64,000 bases of DNA from positions 558,001-622,000 of the forward strand of contig NZ_LBHV01000003.1 of assembly GCF_001005825.1 (NCBI RefSeq). Reading direction: 5' to 3'. The DNA comes from Rhizobium sp. LC145 (GTDB lineage Bacteria > Pseudomonadota > Alphaproteobacteria > Rhizobiales > Rhizobiaceae). Numbering within the stretch: the stretch's first letter is position 1; each line of letters begins with the position of its first letter. Below the pieces are notes generated by a model. That model saw only the letters and a list, made by a program, of their open reading frames with translations. It was not told the DNA's origin and made no database searches. This document shows positions 1,329 to 9,265 of this stretch, one piece after another. Made by a program: the position numbers and the translations under genes.

Positions 1329-2951
1329 TTGGGGCAGGAAACGCCATTGGATCAGGCGCGGCGGGCGCAGGCGGGCAGCCTGGGCGAGCGGCTGGCTTTT
1401 GCCGGCCTCGACGGCGAGTTCTGCGATCTCCTGCGGCGCTTCCGCCCGATGCTGGAACCGCATCTGAAGGCCGGGCTTCGCGACCTTTTCCAGCGTTACC
1501 AGTCTTCCCCGGAAGCGGCCCGCAATTTCCAGAGCGAGAACCAGGTCGACCGGCTCCACGATCTCCAGGCCTCCCATTGGAGCGTGCTGACCGACGCGCG
1601 CTTCGACGCGCTCTATGCCGAGCGCGTGAAGATGCTTTCCGATACGGAAAGCCGCATGGGGCTCGATCCGCGCTGGCATGTGGCGGGTCATGCCGTGGTG
1701 CTCGAACATCTGATTTCCGGCGCGCTTTCCGAGATCGGCGGAAAGGCGATGCTGCCGGCGGCGCGCCGCCGAGAGCGCGAGATCATGGAACTGGTCAGCG
1801 CCGTCATTCGCCTGGTGATGGTGGATGTCGAGATCGCCGTTTCGCTGCGTTTCAACGAACAGCGCCAGAAGCATCAGCGCGCGCTTGCCGAGCAGCGCGA
1901 GGCCGACCAGGTGGAAGTGGTGCAGCTCTTCTCGGGCGTGGCCGCCTCGCTTGCCGAGCGGGACCTTACGGTAACCGCTCCGATGGATGTCCCGGAAGCC
2001 TATGGCGAACTTGCAGCGCTTCTTGGCCAGGCCGTGGAGACCATGCGCACCTCCGTCGAGCGGGCGGAAACGCAGGGGAGGGAGGCGGCAGGCCTTTCCG
2101 AAACGCTGGGCCGGGATGCGCGCACCTTCGCCGCCGCTTCCGTCGAGCACGCAGATCGCCTTGAGGAGGCAGCGCGCCAGCTCACGGCGATCACCGGCAA
2201 GGTGAGGGAAAGCGCTGCCGAAACCGCGGCGGCGGAAAAAGCGGCCGCGGCGACGCGCCGCTCCGTCGAACAAAGCGGTGAAGTGGTGGGACGCGCGATC
2301 AACGCCATGGCGGATATCGAAGCCTCCGCGGAAAAGATCGGCCAGATCATCGGTTCCATCGACGAGATCGCTTTCCAGACCAATCTCCTGGCGTTGAACG
2401 CCGGCATCGAGGCTGCCCGCGCGGGCGAAAGCGGCCGCGGCTTTGCCGTCGTCGCCCAGGAAGTGCGCGCGCTCGCGCAGCGCTCGGCGGAAGCCGCCCG
2501 CGAGATCAAGTCGCTGGTCAACGGCACCAAGACGCAGGTCGATGCGGGCGTGGAAATGGTCCACCGCACGCAGGATGCCATCGGCGGTATCGTCCGGCAG
2601 GTTTCCGAAATCAACGATGCCATCGCCGGCATCGCCCGCGAAAGCGGAGAGCAGGCCGCCGGTCTGGACCGGGTGAGCGCCGAAATCGGCGTGATCGGTG
2701 AGGGTGTCGCCGCGAATGCCGGCATCGCTTCCCGCGCGGGAGGGGGCGCCGACGAGCTGCACAGCGTGATCGTCGAGCTCGGCCGCACGATCCGCGAGTT
2801 CCGCATCGAAAGACAGACCCGCTACCAGTCGGATGCGCCTCGGCCGCCGGCCATGAAAGCCTCGCCGTCCCTCGTTGCAATCGGCTCCTCGGCCGGCGCG
2901 CGTTTCGGCGAGGACGAGTTCGAAATGCACAAGCGACAGGGAATGAGCTGA
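1329..2951 (+). CDS. icpA: Soluble globin-coupled methyl-accepting chemotaxis protein (IcpA-like)
   Basis: A cytoplasmic chemoreceptor without membrane helices. Residues ~20-180 form a protoglobin-like sensor (ASHWSVL at 82-88, [12 protein letters not shown] at 110-121), followed by a linker and an MCP signalling domain containing the conserved hairpin tip ([19 protein letters not shown]). It would signal to CheA/CheW. The position where protoglobin sensors carry the proximal haem histidine is E107 in the run SDTESRMGL, so haem binding is doubtful. The only in-frame start codons near the 5' end are TTG at 1329 and TTG at 1347; the ATG at 1310 with an excellent GGGGAGG ribosome site is one base out of frame. 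The stop overlaps the cheS ATG by one base. It is first in the che operon, as icpA is in S. meliloti. Confidence 0.85.
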
Positions 2952-3244
2952 TGGCGAGCAATAAGCCTGCACCGGGGAGCTTGAAGCTTTCCCCGATACT
3001 GGACCTGAACGAGGCTTCCGTGCTGCACGGCAAGCTGATGTCCATGCGCGGAAGCGACGTCGTCATCGACGCTTCGGACGTGGAACGCGCCGGCGTGCAA
3101 TGCGCGCAGGTGCTTGTCGCCGCGGCCAGGGCCTGGGCGGCGGATGGAAAGTCTTTCCTGGTCGAGAGTGCCTCGGATGCCTTCGACAAGACGGCGCGGC
3201 TCATCGGCATCGATGCCAAGCAATTGGTTGCTAAGGAGATTTGA
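2951..3244 (+). CDS. cheS: CheS, STAS-like chemotaxis protein
   Basis: This 97-residue protein has the alternating pattern of a STAS/anti-sigma-antagonist-like fold (DVVIDASDVERAGVQCAQVLVAAARAW). It occupies the cheS position, between icpA and cheY1. In S. meliloti, CheS binds CheA and speeds removal of phosphate from the sink regulator CheY1; this role is carried over by position and similarity. The start ATG overlaps the icpA stop, and the stop lies two bases before the cheY1 ATG, so the genes are translationally coupled. Confidence 0.8.
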   Translation: MASNKPAPGSLKLSPILDLNEASVLHGKLMSMRGSDVVIDASDVERAGVQCAQVLVAAARAWAADGKSFLVESASDAFDKTARLIGIDAKQLVAKEI

Positions 3245-3246
3245 GC

Positions 3247-3612
3247 ATGAAGAAGAAAGTGCTGACCGTGGATGACTCGCGGACGATCCGGAACATGCTT
3301 CTGGTGACGCTGAACAATGCCGGCTTCGAGACCATTCAGGCCGAGGATGGCGTGGAAGGCCTCGAGGTTCTCGAAGGCGCCAACCCCGACGTCATCGTGA
3401 CCGACATCAACATGCCGAGGCTGGATGGCTTCGGTTTCATCGAGGGCGTGCGCCGCAACGAGAAGTACCGCGCGGTGCCGATCCTCGTGCTGACCACCGA
3501 AAGCGACCAGGAAAAGAAGAACCGGGCGCGCCAGGCCGGTGCGACCGGCTGGATCGTCAAGCCCTTCGACCCCGCGAAACTGATCGATGCGATCGAGCGT
3601 GTAACTGCCTGA
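3247..3612 (+). CDS. cheY1: CheY1 chemotaxis response regulator (phosphate sink)
   Basis: Single receiver domain, 121 residues, no output domain. The acidic pocket is DD at residues 9-10, the phospho-acceptor is D53 in VTDINMP, followed by the LTT switch threonine and the VKPFDP lysine. In the two-CheY scheme of rhizobia, CheY1 drains phosphate from CheA while CheY2 acts on the motor. The frame begins six bases earlier with TTG, but the ATG at 3247, with AAGGAG at 3233-3238, is the natural start. It is located between cheS and cheA. Confidence 0.93.
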   Translation: MKKKVLTVDDSRTIRNMLLVTLNNAGFETIQAEDGVEGLEVLEGANPDVIVTDINMPRLDGFGFIEGVRRNEKYRAVPILVLTTESDQEKKNRARQAGATGWIVKPFDPAKLIDAIERVTA

Positions 3613-3628
3613 ACCGGGATTTCCTCCG

Positions 3629-5911
3629 ATGGACATGAACGAAATCAAAGAGATCTTCTTTCAGGAATGCGAAGAGCAGCTCGCTGAACTGGAATCCGGT
3701 CTTCTCAAGCTGAACGACGGGGATCGCGACCCCGAGACGGTGAATGCCGTTTTTCGCGCCGTTCATTCCATCAAGGGAGGTGCTGGCGCCTTCGGGCTCG
3801 ATGACCTCGTCTCCTTCGCGCATGTCTTCGAGACGACGCTGGATTGCGTCCGCTCCAACCGCCTGGAGCCGACACCCGACGTGCTGAAGGTGATGCTGAA
3901 ATCGGCCGACGTGCTGGCCGATCTCGTGACAGCCTCGCGCGATGGAGGCAGCGTCGACGCCGCGCGCAGCCGTGGCCTGGTGAAGGAACTCGAGGCGCTT
4001 GCCAATGGTGAGCTGCCGGCCCCTTCCGTTCATACCGAGGCGGCCGCTGCAAAGCCGGCCGAGGCCGCTCCGCAGCCGACCGATGAAAGCGGCTTCCAGC
4101 CCATTCCGTTCTCCTTCGACGGGTTTGACGAAGAGGACGAGGTGACGCTCGAAGGCTCCGCCTATGAGATCGTCTTCAAGCCTCGCCGCGAGCTCTATTC
4201 GAAGGGCAATGAGGCGGCACTTCTCCTGCGCGACCTTTCCCGCCTGGGCGAGATGAGCATCCATTGCGATACGGACGCGCTGCCTGCCCTGGACCAGATG
4301 GACCCGGAGGAGGCCTATTTCGCCTGGAAGATTTCGCTGAAGACGACCAGGGGCGAGGAGGATATCCGGACGGTCTTCGAATTCGCCGAATGGGATTGCG
4401 ATCTCGAGGTGAAGCTCGCCGAACCGGCTCGTCCGGACGAAGAGCAGCCGATGGTGCCGGTTCCCTTCGATCTCTCGATCCTGGACGAGACGCCCACCTC
4501 GGAAGAGGAAAGCGAGGAGCCCTCGGCCTCCGGAATCGTCGCTGCTACTCTCGCGGCTGCCGAGACCGCCACGAACGTCACGCGGCTTGCGAGCGTCGCG
4601 GCGCGCGTGGCCGAGCGGCAGGAAGCGTCGGCGGCCGCCGCCGCACCCGCGATTGCCGCGCAGAACACGGCCGCCGCTTCCAGCGCCGGCCAGACGATCC
4701 GCGTCGATCTTGACCGTGTGGACCGGCTCATCAACCTGGTGGGCGAGCTCGTCATCAACCAGGCGATGCTTTCCCAGAGCGTCATCGAGAATGATGCGAC
4801 CGGCACCTCCTCCATCAACATGGGTCTCGAGGAGCTGCAGCAGCTCACCCGCGAGATCCAGGATTCGGTCATGGCGATCCGCGCCCAGCCGGTGAAGCCC
4901 GTCTTCCAGCGCATGTCACGCATCGTCCGCGAAGTGGCCGACATGGTGGGCAAGTCGATCCGCCTGGTGACCGAGGGCGAGAACACGGAAGTTGACAAGA
5001 CGGTCATCGACAAGCTGGCCGAGCCGCTCACGCACATGATCCGCAATGCCGTAGACCACGGTATCGAGACGCCTGAGAAGCGCGAGGCCGCCGGCAAGTC
5101 CCCGGAAGGCACGATCAAGCTCACCGCGAAGCATCGTTCGGGCCGCATTCTCATCGAGCTGCAGGACGACGGTGCCGGCATCAACCGCGAACGCGTGCGC
5201 CAGAAGGCGATCGACAACGACCTGATCGCGGCGGATGCGAACCTCACCGACGACGAGATCGACAACCTGATCTTCATGCCGGGCTTCTCGACCGCCGACA
5301 AGATTTCCGACATTTCCGGCCGCGGCGTCGGCATGGACGTGGTCAAGCGCTCGATCCAGGCGCTCGGCGGCCGCATTTCGATCTCGTCCAGGCCGGGACA
5401 CGGCTCCACCTTCACCATGAGCCTGCCGCTGACGCTCGCCGTGCTCGACGGCATGGTCGTGACGGTCGCGGGCCAGACGCTGGTGGTGCCGTTGACGGCG
5501 ATCGTGGAAACGCTGCAGCCGGAAGCCTCCGCCATCCATTCCTTCGGCGCGAACCACCGGCTGATTTCGATCCGCAATTCCTTCTGCCCGCTGGTCGATG
5601 TCGGCCGTATCCTGAACTTCCGCGCCATCCAGGCGAACCCGGTCGAGGGCGTCGCGCTGCTGGTGGAATCGGAGGGCGGCGGCCAGCGCGCCCTGATGGT
5701 GGATGCCATCCAGGGTCAGCGCCAGGTGGTCATCAAGTCGCTCGAAGCGAACTACACCCATGTGCCGGGCATCGCGGCCGCCACCATTCTCGGCGATGGT
5801 CGCGTCGCCCTCATCCTGGATGTCGATGCGGTCGTTGCGGCCTCGCGCGGCCAGGCCCTTAAACCGGAATTGGCGCTGAAGCCTGAAATGCCTCTTGCAG
5901 CCGCGGGATAA
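3629..5911 (+). CDS. cheA: CheA chemotaxis histidine kinase
   Basis: 760 residues with the standard domain series. The P1 phosphotransfer domain carries H46 in AVHSIKGGAGAFG. A P2-like acidic region (residues ~150-270) follows, then an Ala-rich linker, a P3 dimerisation helix pair (RVDRLINLVGELVINQ), the P4 ATP-binding domain (N box HMIRNAVDHGIE; G boxes ISDISGRGVGMDVVKR and GHGSTF) and a P5 CheW-like domain to the end. It phosphorylates CheY1, CheY2 and CheB in response to receptor state. All catalytic boxes are intact. It lies 16 bases after cheY1 and 3 bases before cheW. Confidence 0.97.
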   Translation: MDMNEIKEIFFQECEEQLAELESGLLKLNDGDRDPETVNAVFRAVHSIKGGAGAFGLDDLVSFAHVFETTLDCVRSNRLEPTPDVLKVMLKSADVLADLVTASRDGGSVDAARSRGLVKELEALANGELPAPSVHTEAAAAKPAEAAPQPTDESGFQPIPFSFDGFDEEDEVTLEGSAYEIVFKPRRELYSKGNEAALLLRDLSRLGEMSIHCDTDALPALDQMDPEEAYFAWKISLKTTRGEEDIRTVFEFAEWDCDLEVKLAEPARPDEEQPMVPVPFDLSILDETPTSEEESEEPSASGIVAATLAAAETATNVTRLASVAARVAERQEASAAAAAPAIAAQNTAAASSAGQTIRVDLDRVDRLINLVGELVINQAMLSQSVIENDATGTSSINMGLEELQQLTREIQDSVMAIRAQPVKPVFQRMSRIVREVADMVGKSIRLVTEGENTEVDKTVIDKLAEPLTHMIRNAVDHGIETPEKREAAGKSPEGTIKLTAKHRSGRILIELQDDGAGINRERVRQKAIDNDLIAADANLTDDEIDNLIFMPGFSTADKISDISGRGVGMDVVKRSIQALGGRISISSRPGHGSTFTMSLPLTLAVLDGMVVTVAGQTLVVPLTAIVETLQPEASAIHSFGANHRLISIRNSFCPLVDVGRILNFRAIQANPVEGVALLVESEGGGQRALMVDAIQGQRQVVIKSLEANYTHVPGIAAATILGDGRVALILDVDAVVAASRGQALKPELALKPEMPLAAAG

Positions 5912-5914
5912 TCC

Positions 5915-6382
5915 ATGTCGTACGCCGTGAAGAATCTGACCCAGGGAAGCCGCGAACTCATCGCCTTTCGCATCGGCGAGCAGGAGTTCTGCGTGAACAT
6001 CATGTCGGTCCGGGAAATCCGCGGGTGGACGCCCGCAACCCCCATGCCGCATGCGCCTGCCTATGTGCTGGGCATCATCAACCTGCGCGGCGCGGTGCTG
6101 CCGATCGTCGATCTGTCGGCCCGGCTCGGAATGAAGCCGACCGAGCCCTCTCCCCGCCACGTCATCATCGTGGCGCAGGTGAAGAGCCGGGTGGTGGGCC
6201 TGCTGGTTGAGGCCGTTTCCGACATCCTGACGGTTACAGACGAGAACATGCAGCCGGTGCCGGAAATCTCCTCCGATATCGAGAAACAGTATGCGCGGGG
6301 CATTCTCGCCATCGAAAAGCGGATGATCTGCATGATCGAGCTGGATGCGCTCTTCCCCGAGAAGGAAAGCGAAGCCGCATGA
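5915..6382 (+). CDS. cheW: CheW chemotaxis coupling protein
   Basis: 155 residues forming a single CheW/SH3-like domain (IAFRIGEQEFCVNIMSVREI, then YVLGIINLRGAVLPIVDL). It links receptors such as IcpA and the Cache receptor further right to the P5 domain of CheA. Its stop overlaps the cheR start (ATGA, 6379-6382), the usual sign of translational coupling in this operon. No anomaly was seen. Confidence 0.95.
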   Translation: MSYAVKNLTQGSRELIAFRIGEQEFCVNIMSVREIRGWTPATPMPHAPAYVLGIINLRGAVLPIVDLSARLGMKPTEPSPRHVIIVAQVKSRVVGLLVEAVSDILTVTDENMQPVPEISSDIEKQYARGILAIEKRMICMIELDALFPEKESEAA

Positions 6383-7287
6383 CGTCCCTGGGCCTTGCCG
6401 AAAGCCGGCAGCATCCCGATGAGATCATGGCGAACGGAGAATATCCGCTGACGCGCCGCGATCTCTCCGAAATCGCGGCGATGATCTATTCCGATGCCGG
6501 AATCTATCTGAACGAATCCAAGGCCTCGCTGGTCTATTCGCGGCTGTCGAAGCATATCCGCGCGCTCGGCCTCAAGGGTTTCCGGGAATATTGCGCGCTC
6601 GTCGCCTCGCCGGAAGGCGCGGTCGCCCGGCGCGAGATGCTCTCGCATCTGACGACCAATTTCACCCGTTTCTTCCGGGAGAACCACCATTTCGAGCACC
6701 TGCGTGATCACGTACTGCCGGGGCTCATTGCCCGTGCGAAGAACGGCGGCCGCGTCCGCATCTGGTCGGCGGCCTGCTCGGACGGGCAGGAGCCCTATTC
6801 GATCGCGCTGACGGTTCTTTCCATGCTGCCGAACGCGGCCGATTACGACTTCCGCATCCTGGCGACCGATATCGACCCGAAGATTCTCGCGGCTGCAAAG
6901 GCCGGCATCTATGACGAGGGCGCGCTGGAGACGGTCTCGCCGCCCATGCGCAAGCAATGGTTTCGCGAGGTGGAGGCGGGCGGCCGCCGCAAGTTCCAGG
7001 TCGATGACCGGGTCAAGAAGCTCATCACCTTCAACGAGCTGAACCTGATGGCCCAATGGCCGTTCAAGGGAAATTTCGACGTCATCTTCTGCCGCAACGT
7101 CGTTATCTATTTCGACGAGCCGACGCAGATGAAGATCTGGTCGCGCTTCGCAGCACTCCTTCCGGAAGGCGGCCACCTCTATATCGGCCATTCCGAGCGC
7201 GTCTCGGGAGACGCCAAGCATCTCTTCGACAACACGGGTATCACCACCTACCGCCATATCGGCAAGAACGTGGGGAGGAAGGCATGA
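6379..7287 (+). CDS. cheR: CheR chemoreceptor glutamate methyltransferase
   Basis: Transfers methyl groups from S-adenosylmethionine to glutamates of chemoreceptors during adaptation. The 302-residue protein has the N-terminal all-helical CheR domain (residues ~15-85) and the SAM-binding methyltransferase domain, with [17 protein letters not shown] as the glycine-rich SAM loop and [13 protein letters not shown] later. A methyl-group target is present in the window in the MCP domains. The stop overlaps the cheB start by four bases. Confidence 0.96.
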
Positions 7288-8324
7288 GCGCCCCTGCACG
7301 CGTTCTCGTCGTCGACGATTCCCCCACCATGCGCGGGCTGATCACGGCCGTGCTGAATTCCGATCCGGAAGTCAACGTGATCGGCCAAGCCGGCGATGCG
7401 CTCGAAGCGCGCGAAGCGATCAAGCGGCTCGATCCCGACGTGGTGACGCTGGATATCGAAATGCCGAACATGAACGGCCTCGATTTCCTCGAAAAGATCA
7501 TGCGGCTGCGCCCCATGCCGGTCATCATGGTTTCGACGCTGACCCATAGGGGCGCGGACGCGACGCTCGCGGCACTCGAGATCGGCGCTTTCGACTGCGT
7601 CGGCAAGCCGGTTCCGGGCGATGTCCGGCCGTTCGTCGATCTCGCAGAGAAGGTAAAGGCGGCGGCCCGCTCGCAGCGCCGCGGCCGCAGTCCGGTTTCC
7701 GCTCCCGCCGTCACGCCGGCTGCCGACTACAGGGTCGGCCGCAAGATCGTGGCGATCGGCTCATCGACCGGGGGCGTGGAAGCACTGATCACGGTGCTGC
7801 AGAAGTTCCCGAAGAACTGCCCGCCCACCATGATCACTCAACATATGCCGCCCACGTTTACCAAAAGTTTTGCGGAGCGGCTTAATCGTATCTGCGCTCC
7901 CGTGGTGCAGGAAGCGACCGATGGCGCGCGGCTGGAGATCGGCAAGGTCTATATAGCGCCAGGTGGCGACCGGCATCTCCAGGTGGTCAATCCGTCGGCC
8001 CCGAGCTGCCGCCTTGTCGAGCGGGAACCGGTCAACGGCCACAGGCCGTCGGTGGATGTCCTGTTCGATTCGGTCGCGGAACTCGCCGGCCGCAGCGCCG
8101 TCGGGGTGATCCTGACGGGCATGGGCCGCGATGGAGCGGCCGGACTGCTCCGGATGCGCAGCGCAGGCGCGCGCACCATCGGGCAGAACGAAAAAACCTG
8201 TGTGGTCTACGGCATGCCGAGGGTTGCCTACGAGATGGGAGCCGTCGAGCAGCAATTGCCGCTGGGCTCCATCGGAGAAGAAGTTTTGAAATTAACTGCC
8301 GCCCGGAAGGAAGGTACCGAATAA
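7284..8324 (+). CDS. cheB: CheB receptor methylesterase / glutamine deamidase
   Basis: 346 residues: an N-terminal receiver domain with phospho-acceptor D57 ([11 protein letters not shown]) and a C-terminal methylesterase domain with the catalytic triad visible as S161 in GSSTGG, H187 in TQHMPP and D283 in GMGRDGAAG. It removes methyl groups added by CheR, activated by CheA. The frame is open further upstream, but the ATG at 7284 preceded by GGAGGAAGG and overlapping the cheR stop is the real start. The stop is immediately followed by cheY2. Confidence 0.97.
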
Positions 8325-8714
8325 ATGTCTCTCGCGGAAAAAATCAAAGTCCTGATCGTCGATGATCAGGTGACCAGCCGCCTGCTGCTCAGCGACGCTC
8401 TGACCCAGCTCGGTTTCAAGCAGATCACCGCCGCCGGCGATGGCGAGCAGGGCATGAAGATCATGGCCGAACAGCCGCATCACCTAGTCATCTCGGATTT
8501 CAACATGCCGAAGATGGACGGCATCGGCTTCCTGCAGGCCGTCCGCAGCAATCCGAACACGAAGAAGGCCGCGTTCATCATTCTGACCGCTCAGGGCGAC
8601 CGCGCACTCGTGCAGAAGGCCGCCCAGCTCGGCGCCAACAACGTTCTCGCCAAGCCGTTCACCATCGAGAAGATGAAGGCAGCCATCGAGGCCGTGTTCG
8701 GAGCGCTGAAATGA
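8325..8714 (+). CDS. cheY2: CheY2 motor-binding response regulator
   Basis: Single receiver domain of 129 residues. Phospho-acceptor D58 lies in [12 protein letters not shown], with DD at 13-14, the LTA switch position and the AKPFT lysine. In rhizobia phosphorylated CheY2 slows the unidirectional motor through FliM. It starts directly after the cheB stop, and its own stop overlaps the cheD ATG. If the flagellum is absent, as the deletion at 23.9 kb suggests, this regulator has no motor to act on. Confidence 0.94.
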
Positions 8715-9265
8715 CAGACGCCGCCGCGGCCAGGCGTGTCCACATCATCCAGGGCGAGTACAAGGTCGAAAACGACCCGAACGTCGTCCTGGCGACGATA
8801 TTGGGCTCATGCGTGGCTGCCTGTCTTCGCGATCCGGTCGCCGGTGTCGGCGGCATGAACCATTTCCTGCTCCCCGGCTCCGGAGGCGCGGCAGCCTCCG
8901 GCGGGGATGCGACGCGCTATGGCGTGCATCTGATGGAACTGCTGATCAACGGTCTCCTGAAGCGGGGAGCCCGACGCGACAGGCTGGAGGCGAAGATCTT
9001 CGGCGGCGCGAAGACCATTGCGAGCTTTTCGAACGTCGGTGAGCAGAACGCGGCCTTCGCCATGCAGTTCCTCAAGGACGAGGGCATTCCGGTGGTCGGC
9101 TCGTCCACCGGGGGCGAGCACGGCCGCAAGCTCGAATACTGGCCGGTCAGCGGCAGGGCGCGCCAGTATCCGCTCACCGGCGCCGAAACGCAGAAGACCG
9201 TGGCCATGGAGCAGCGCCCGGTGCGCGCGCCCAAGCCCGCCGAAAGCTCCATCGAATTCTTTTAG
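8711..9265 (+). CDS. cheD: CheD chemoreceptor glutamine deamidase
   Basis: 184 residues. The CheD fold is recognisable from [11 protein letters not shown] with catalytic C34, [10 protein letters not shown] with H51, and [10 protein letters not shown] further on. It deamidates receptor glutamines and in some bacteria stimulates CheY-P dephosphorylation. The C-terminus ends in SSIEFF, an aromatic tail that resembles the end of the downstream cheT product. It overlaps cheY2 by four bases and lies 42 bases before cheT. Confidence 0.93.

Follow-up and report, generated by a model that had tools for sequence, protein, structure and literature searches.

The chemoreceptor IcpA of Rhizobium sp. LC145, encoded at the head of a che operon in the 64,000-nucleotide stretch analysed here (the window), was found to carry a globin-type sensor domain with glutamate (E107) at the place of the proximal haem-binding histidine (F8). 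As far as sequences can tell, the losses seen in this receptor, their sharing among orthologues, the single origin of the histidine loss, the selection on the domain and the operon place of the gene are established. IcpA is very probably haem-free and probably works without oxygen sensing. The reading preferred here, held with middling confidence, is that of a haem-free, non-adapting array receptor, the main task of which would be to set array gain or baseline and not to detect oxygen. Glutamate at F8 and missing globin residues have in part been published before; what is added here is a family-wide count, a single origin, a coordinated change of the pocket and a parallel loss of methylation sites.

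The icpA gene and its operon

The icpA gene (1329-2951; its features and the operon genes that follow it lie on the plus strand and are numbered as in the window) is an ORF with a TTG start, encoding a soluble chemoreceptor of 540 amino acids. Pfam matches were obtained to PF11563 (Protoglobin, 115.9 bits against a cut-off of 25) and PF00015 (MCPsignal, 151.5 bits). The protoglobin-type sensor domain, supported by Pfam and an AlphaFold model, covers residues 16-178 (1374-1862) and the MCP signalling domain residues 305-453 (2241-2687). In the genome of the window, icpA is the only protoglobin match found, with MCP signalling domains numbering 11. In rhizobia and agrobacteria this receptor is encoded alongside the core chemotaxis proteins, and its protoglobin profile hints at a haem protein.

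The next gene in the operon encodes a STAS-domain protein (2951-3244, PF13466) and is followed by cheY1 (3241-3612, PF00072), cheA (3629-5911, with Hpt, H-kinase_dim, HATPase_c and CheW domains), cheW (5915-6382, PF01584), cheR (6379-7287, PF01739), cheB (7284-8324, PF01339), cheY2 (8325-8714, PF00072) and cheD (8711-9265, PF03975). The gene is thus the first before STAS-cheY1-cheA, the place by which IcpA is recognised, and the gene order matches the rhizobial che operon with icpA first, as named in PMC7617929. A methylpurine-DNA glycosylase gene (399-998, PF02245), an ordinary neighbour, lies upstream of icpA.

The codon at the IcpA start place is TTG in 107, GTG in 21 and ATG in none of 148 hits, so that the che operon seemingly opens with a weak start codon that has been conserved; an in-frame ATG occurs further upstream in 52 of the 148, and in those the true start is unsure. 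One genome (G461) has two IcpA genes (L048 and L142) of more than 60% identity; a STAS gene comes after both, which hints at two che operons.

The proximal position and its history

E107 (GAA, 1647-1649) lies inside a 13-residue run (residues 104-116), and the preliminary description had placed it at the position of the proximal histidine. This is borne out by the alignment with HemAT-Bs (1or4), which is gapless from HemAT H99 to W132 and sets H123 on E107; the histidines of V. vulnificus RsbR and of G. sulfurreducens GCS fall in the same column. No gaps or inserts occur over residues 83-116 in 196 aligned rows and no histidine occurs at residues 85-116 in 141 IcpA rows, so that another histidine at the proximal place is rejected. 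The range quoted earlier also takes in H117 (1677-1679), which is replaced by Q, R, N or L in some other IcpA proteins, and H121 (1689-1691) of helix G; these align with HemAT Y133 and F137, respectively, and not with F8. Both sides of F8 are conserved in IcpA and canonical relatives alike, with H83-W84 before it and G111, P114 and W116 after it.

Every hit of more than 50% identity to the window protein was taken as IcpA, giving 150 hits from a family search (297 genomes, 69 rows above that identity), a scan of named genomes (80 loci) and the window gene once again. A STAS gene follows icpA in all 150 (the window gene being counted twice), and cheA is absent from the fetched stretch in 32 of them, short flanks being the likely cause. 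The 44 canonical rows consist of 30 loci, the best protoglobin hits in 199 genomes, and 14 of the next-best family hits. A sister group of eight proteins (33-40% identity), heading the same operon and likewise followed by the STAS gene (8/8), has arginine at F8 throughout; the residue at F8 gave this Arg group its name, and it still forms one clade on a tree built without that column.

The comparison with other IcpA proteins proposed in the preliminary description showed the loss to be shared. Among 141 distinct IcpA domains, F8 is occupied by glutamate in 127, glutamine in seven, alanine in four, cysteine in two, serine in one and histidine in none, and histidine is present in 44/44 canonical relatives, a count which covers the best hits and leaves out weaker protoglobin hits at more than 100 places. 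Because of this contrast, the absence of the F8 histidine from IcpA is far beyond chance. No type of ligand is kept at the position, since five different residues occur there in IcpA and arginine in the sister group. Retention of glutamate as a haem ligand was considered and rejected, given Gln, Ala, Cys, Ser and Arg at F8 in orthologues. An order-wide profile search of 297 genomes gave 28 new loci among its best 30; 24 of the new loci belong to other families, and each of these has His at F8 and Tyr at the place of residue 121, some of these genes being shared with the 44.

In a maximum-likelihood tree of 102 rows with the F8 column dropped, IcpA and the Arg group lie together on one side of a branch (support 100/99), the program warning of meeting long branches, that of the Arg group with IcpA included, and HemAT-Bs and GsGCS being short fragments on very long branches. 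A single change from His to non-His is needed on this tree, and the F8 letter itself changes at least 11 times. Judged from this phylogeny, the loss of the F8 histidine is shared, old and of single origin. The exact root of IcpA and the Arg group among the canonical proteins is unsure because the branches are long.

No che operon was seen beside 43 of the 44 canonical rows, most of which were fetched with only ~1.5 kb of flank, too little to speak for or against one. In two genomes of one genus of the family (L194 and L216), a canonical HemAT with the F8 histidine heads a STAS-cheY-cheA operon, in the slot of IcpA. The CheA proteins of these operons have 45-46% identity to the window CheA, compared with 53-57% for the closest operons of other families (L202-L205, L207, L211) and 42-44% for the farthest (L208, L209, L212, L213, L215). 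A haem-bearing ancestor in the same operon slot, as L194 and L216 might suggest, is disfavoured, their CheA being distant, like that of the farthest families. The HemAT-headed operon may be a separate arrangement, since its CheA identity is below that of the closest other-family operons. Six of the operons from other families (L202-L207) have in this slot an MCP that matches HAMP but not the globin profile. In L206, a canonical HemAT gene (2636-4270 of that locus) lies directly upstream of the HAMP-bearing slot MCP (4431-6275).

Pocket, fold and methylation sites

After thinning at 80% identity the canonical set comprised 37 domains, in which 23 columns are at least 95% fixed; eight of these are replaced in IcpA (53, 54, 104, 107, 117, 121, 168 and 174). 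From globin topology, six of the eight are taken to lie at or beside the haem, with columns 53, 104, 117 and 121 presumably adjacent on the haem side, within helices B, F and G. In helix B, L53-F54 (1485-1490) replaces an invariant Phe-Tyr pair; F54 stands at the place of the distal (B10) Tyr70 of HemAT, where tyrosine is found in 44/44 canonical and 0/141 IcpA domains. Two other pocket tyrosines are also replaced in IcpA. Position 121 is His in 137/141 IcpA and 8/8 Arg-group proteins and Tyr in all 44 canonical ones; the remaining four IcpA combine Q121 with R117 and E107 and thus have no histidine at any of the three places. The sole histidine present in all 141 IcpA is H83, which is also found in all 44 canonical proteins.

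New invariant residues have appeared in IcpA, for example D89, R99, D105 and R174; D89, R99 and R174 are present in 8/8 of the Arg group, with position 105 being Asp in five and Glu in three. When side-chain volumes are added up for 19 pocket places chosen from globin topology, IcpA comes to 3153, the Arg group to 3088 and canonical proteins to 3111; larger side chains, a possible cause of haem loss, thus do not clearly fill the pocket.

It had been proposed earlier that the globin fold is kept, and structure prediction agrees. An AlphaFold2 model (window protein plus 51 relatives; pLDDT 86.9, pTM 0.80) has E107 within a helix of residues 94-109. The best Foldseek match of the model is 1or6 (E 6.9e-05), and VIA-align gave Z scores of 18.2 to AfGcHK (5ohf), 17.8 to GsGCS and 17.6 to HemAT (1or4). 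As modelled, then, IcpA keeps the globin fold and lacks the proximal histidine. The sensor domain is under purifying selection, with a median dN/dS of 0.078 over 615 related (not independent) pairs and 0.074 for the window protein against L062.

A second loss concerns adaptation. With the consensus [ASTG][ASTG]xx[EQ][EQ]xx[ASTG][ASTG] (PMC6391922), a motif scan of residues 1-540 of the window IcpA found no methylation motif. Among the 144 other distinct IcpA proteins (the window gene having been scanned apart) the motif is absent in 137 and occurs once in seven; at least one motif occurs in 15% of shuffled sequences. It is also absent in 7/8 of the Arg group, and one to four motifs were found in all 41 canonical relatives counted, 3 of the 44 having been left out as no tip was found in them. 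Glu or Gln at the eight aligned site positions is present in 3-36% of IcpA rows versus 50-100% of canonical rows (the 20 of 41 in which the tip pattern used was present). Nine of the 11 MCPs in the window genome have the motif. The two without it are IcpA and L253 (G000:C1:329714-330175).

The hairpin tip which binds CheA and CheW is intact in the window protein (residues 346-366, 2364-2426), and all of its 21 letters are kept in 125/144 IcpA. Since the operon of IcpA also includes cheR, cheB and cheD, the adaptation enzymes are present and the usual sites are missing in IcpA, which may be methylated at non-consensus sites. No mention of the missing methylation sites was found in the open-library literature searched. 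Older papers in J. Bacteriol. reportedly call IcpA 'transducer-like' and may mention them.

Probable role and relation to known systems

The course of events suggested by these observations begins with a haem globin as the ancestor of the IcpA sensor domain. Haem ligation would have been lost in one ancient step in Rhizobiaceae, in which the F8 histidine, the distal tyrosine and the pocket tyrosines were replaced and the consensus methylation sites disappeared, with the globin fold and the CheA/CheW-binding tip apparently retained throughout. In the cell, IcpA would carry no haem, dimerise like its relatives and enter the polar receptor array via its tip; CheR and CheB would not reset it, and its main effect would be on array gain or baseline. 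The receptor would sit in mixed arrays, and its globin domain, free of haem, would most likely serve for dimerisation and signalling. A slow internal input via the old pocket side (E107, H117, H121) is possible.

Published work on the A. fabrum orthologue bears on this role. MCP514 (Atu0514) has a polar location even when CheW is missing, and cells in which it is deleted still respond to four unlike chemicals, though less strongly (PMC8466855). This broad, partial phenotype fits a gain-setting member of the array better than a specific sensor. His100 is needed in Atu1027, an ordinary paralogue of the same organism (PMC10851874). Two points count against this role. The domain is strongly conserved and has acquired new invariant residues (for example D89, D105 and R174), for which a mere spacer would have no need. 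The IcpA of S. meliloti is reportedly a low-abundance receptor, as Zatakia et al. are said to have found in 2018, and a scaffold role is weakened for that reason.

The main rival to the helper reading is that IcpA does sense a cytoplasmic signal other than one bound to haem (a metabolite, an anion, a metal, pH or a protein partner), received through the helix interface or the old pocket, and adapts in some other way; this is entertained tentatively, as a substantial alternative. It is favoured by the strong purifying selection on the domain and by the new invariant polar residues together with H121, nearly fixed in IcpA and shared with the whole Arg group. HemAT-Bs binds ethanol with haem taking no part (PMC7542364), and in R. 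leguminosarum, mutation of icpA lowers rhizosphere growth by about 18% (PMC11103875), both of which suit a sensor. However, the A. fabrum phenotype is broad rather than specific, E107 and H117 vary among orthologues, and no ligand is known. Since the methylation motifs are missing, a helper role without sensing is at least as likely as the sensing of something else. A stronger version of the helper reading, less likely than not as a whole, would make IcpA a 'pseudo-chemoreceptor': a former oxygen receptor, deprived of cofactor and methylation sites, selected family-wide as an adaptation-blind tuner of the array, with the globin as a pure conformational or partner-binding module.

Continued haem binding through H121, H117 or glutamate, as in globins with swapped sites, is improbable. 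H121, a residue of helix G, is almost invariant, and HGbRL is a globin-coupled sensor able to swap sites (PMC4476040), but H121 is disfavoured as an obligate ligand because four IcpA have Gln121 and no histidine at 107 or 117; H83, being in all canonical proteins too, is not a new ligand, and the distal tyrosine is gone from 141/141. Still less probable is a functionless, decaying sensor domain that persists solely on account of the indispensable tip: F8, position 117 and the methylation places do vary, but a dN/dS of about 0.08 and the many domain residues invariant over the family oppose decay. The doubt that the alignment itself misleads and the true proximal histidine lies elsewhere dates from 2015, when 21 globin-coupled sensors of rhizobia were described as having glutamate at F8, with a warning of an alignment artefact, and caution was urged on that ground (PMC4648194, the models of which still give 'proximal H/E' distances to the haem iron). 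Given the ungapped, insert-free stretch in all aligned rows, the lack of any histidine near F8 in IcpA and the invariant anchors on both sides, an artefact is hardly credible and the doubt can be dropped.

The preliminary description was thus right on the residue and on probable haem loss. The loss of both haem ligand and adaptation sites in this lineage tells experimenters what not to seek, and whether an array uses a never-adapting receptor, and how an old haem globin is reused, are now testable questions.

Among the closest known systems are the HemAT-type receptors (HemAT-Bs and Atu1027 of Agrobacterium), which share with IcpA the soluble protoglobin plus MCP arrangement and the fold. Their relatives in Rhizobiales and IcpA have the same conserved frame (H83-W84, Y96, W116), whereas IcpA is without the proximal histidine, the distal tyrosine, the other pocket tyrosines and the consensus methylation motif. 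MCP514/Atu0514 of A. fabrum and the IcpA proteins of R. leguminosarum and S. meliloti are orthologues by operon place and description, and by description no difference in kind is seen; the protein of R. leguminosarum bv. viciae USDA 2370 (L120) has Glu at F8. In 2024, Atu0514 was noted to be without three residues conserved in globins and possibly to differ from typical globin receptors (PMC10851874).

The likeness to the non-haem globin RsbR drawn in the preliminary description is fair as an analogy and goes no further. RsbR of Bacillus is a stressosome protein with a STAS domain in the same chain. Such an architecture with STAS is named in PMC9237108, and RsbR resembles IcpA as a globin sensor without haem-binding and distal residues (PMC4976288). 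The entry 3zta, the title of which names a bacterial stressosome, gave a Z score of 11.6 to the IcpA model. RsbR acts in the stressosome, whereas in IcpA the globin is joined to an MCP domain; no STAS output is present in the IcpA chain, its output being MCPsignal and the STAS protein being the product of the next gene. By the same consensus, FlmB of Comamonas testosteroni also has no methylation motif (PMC6391922), but its pathway is likewise without CheR and CheB, whereas the operon of IcpA encodes both.
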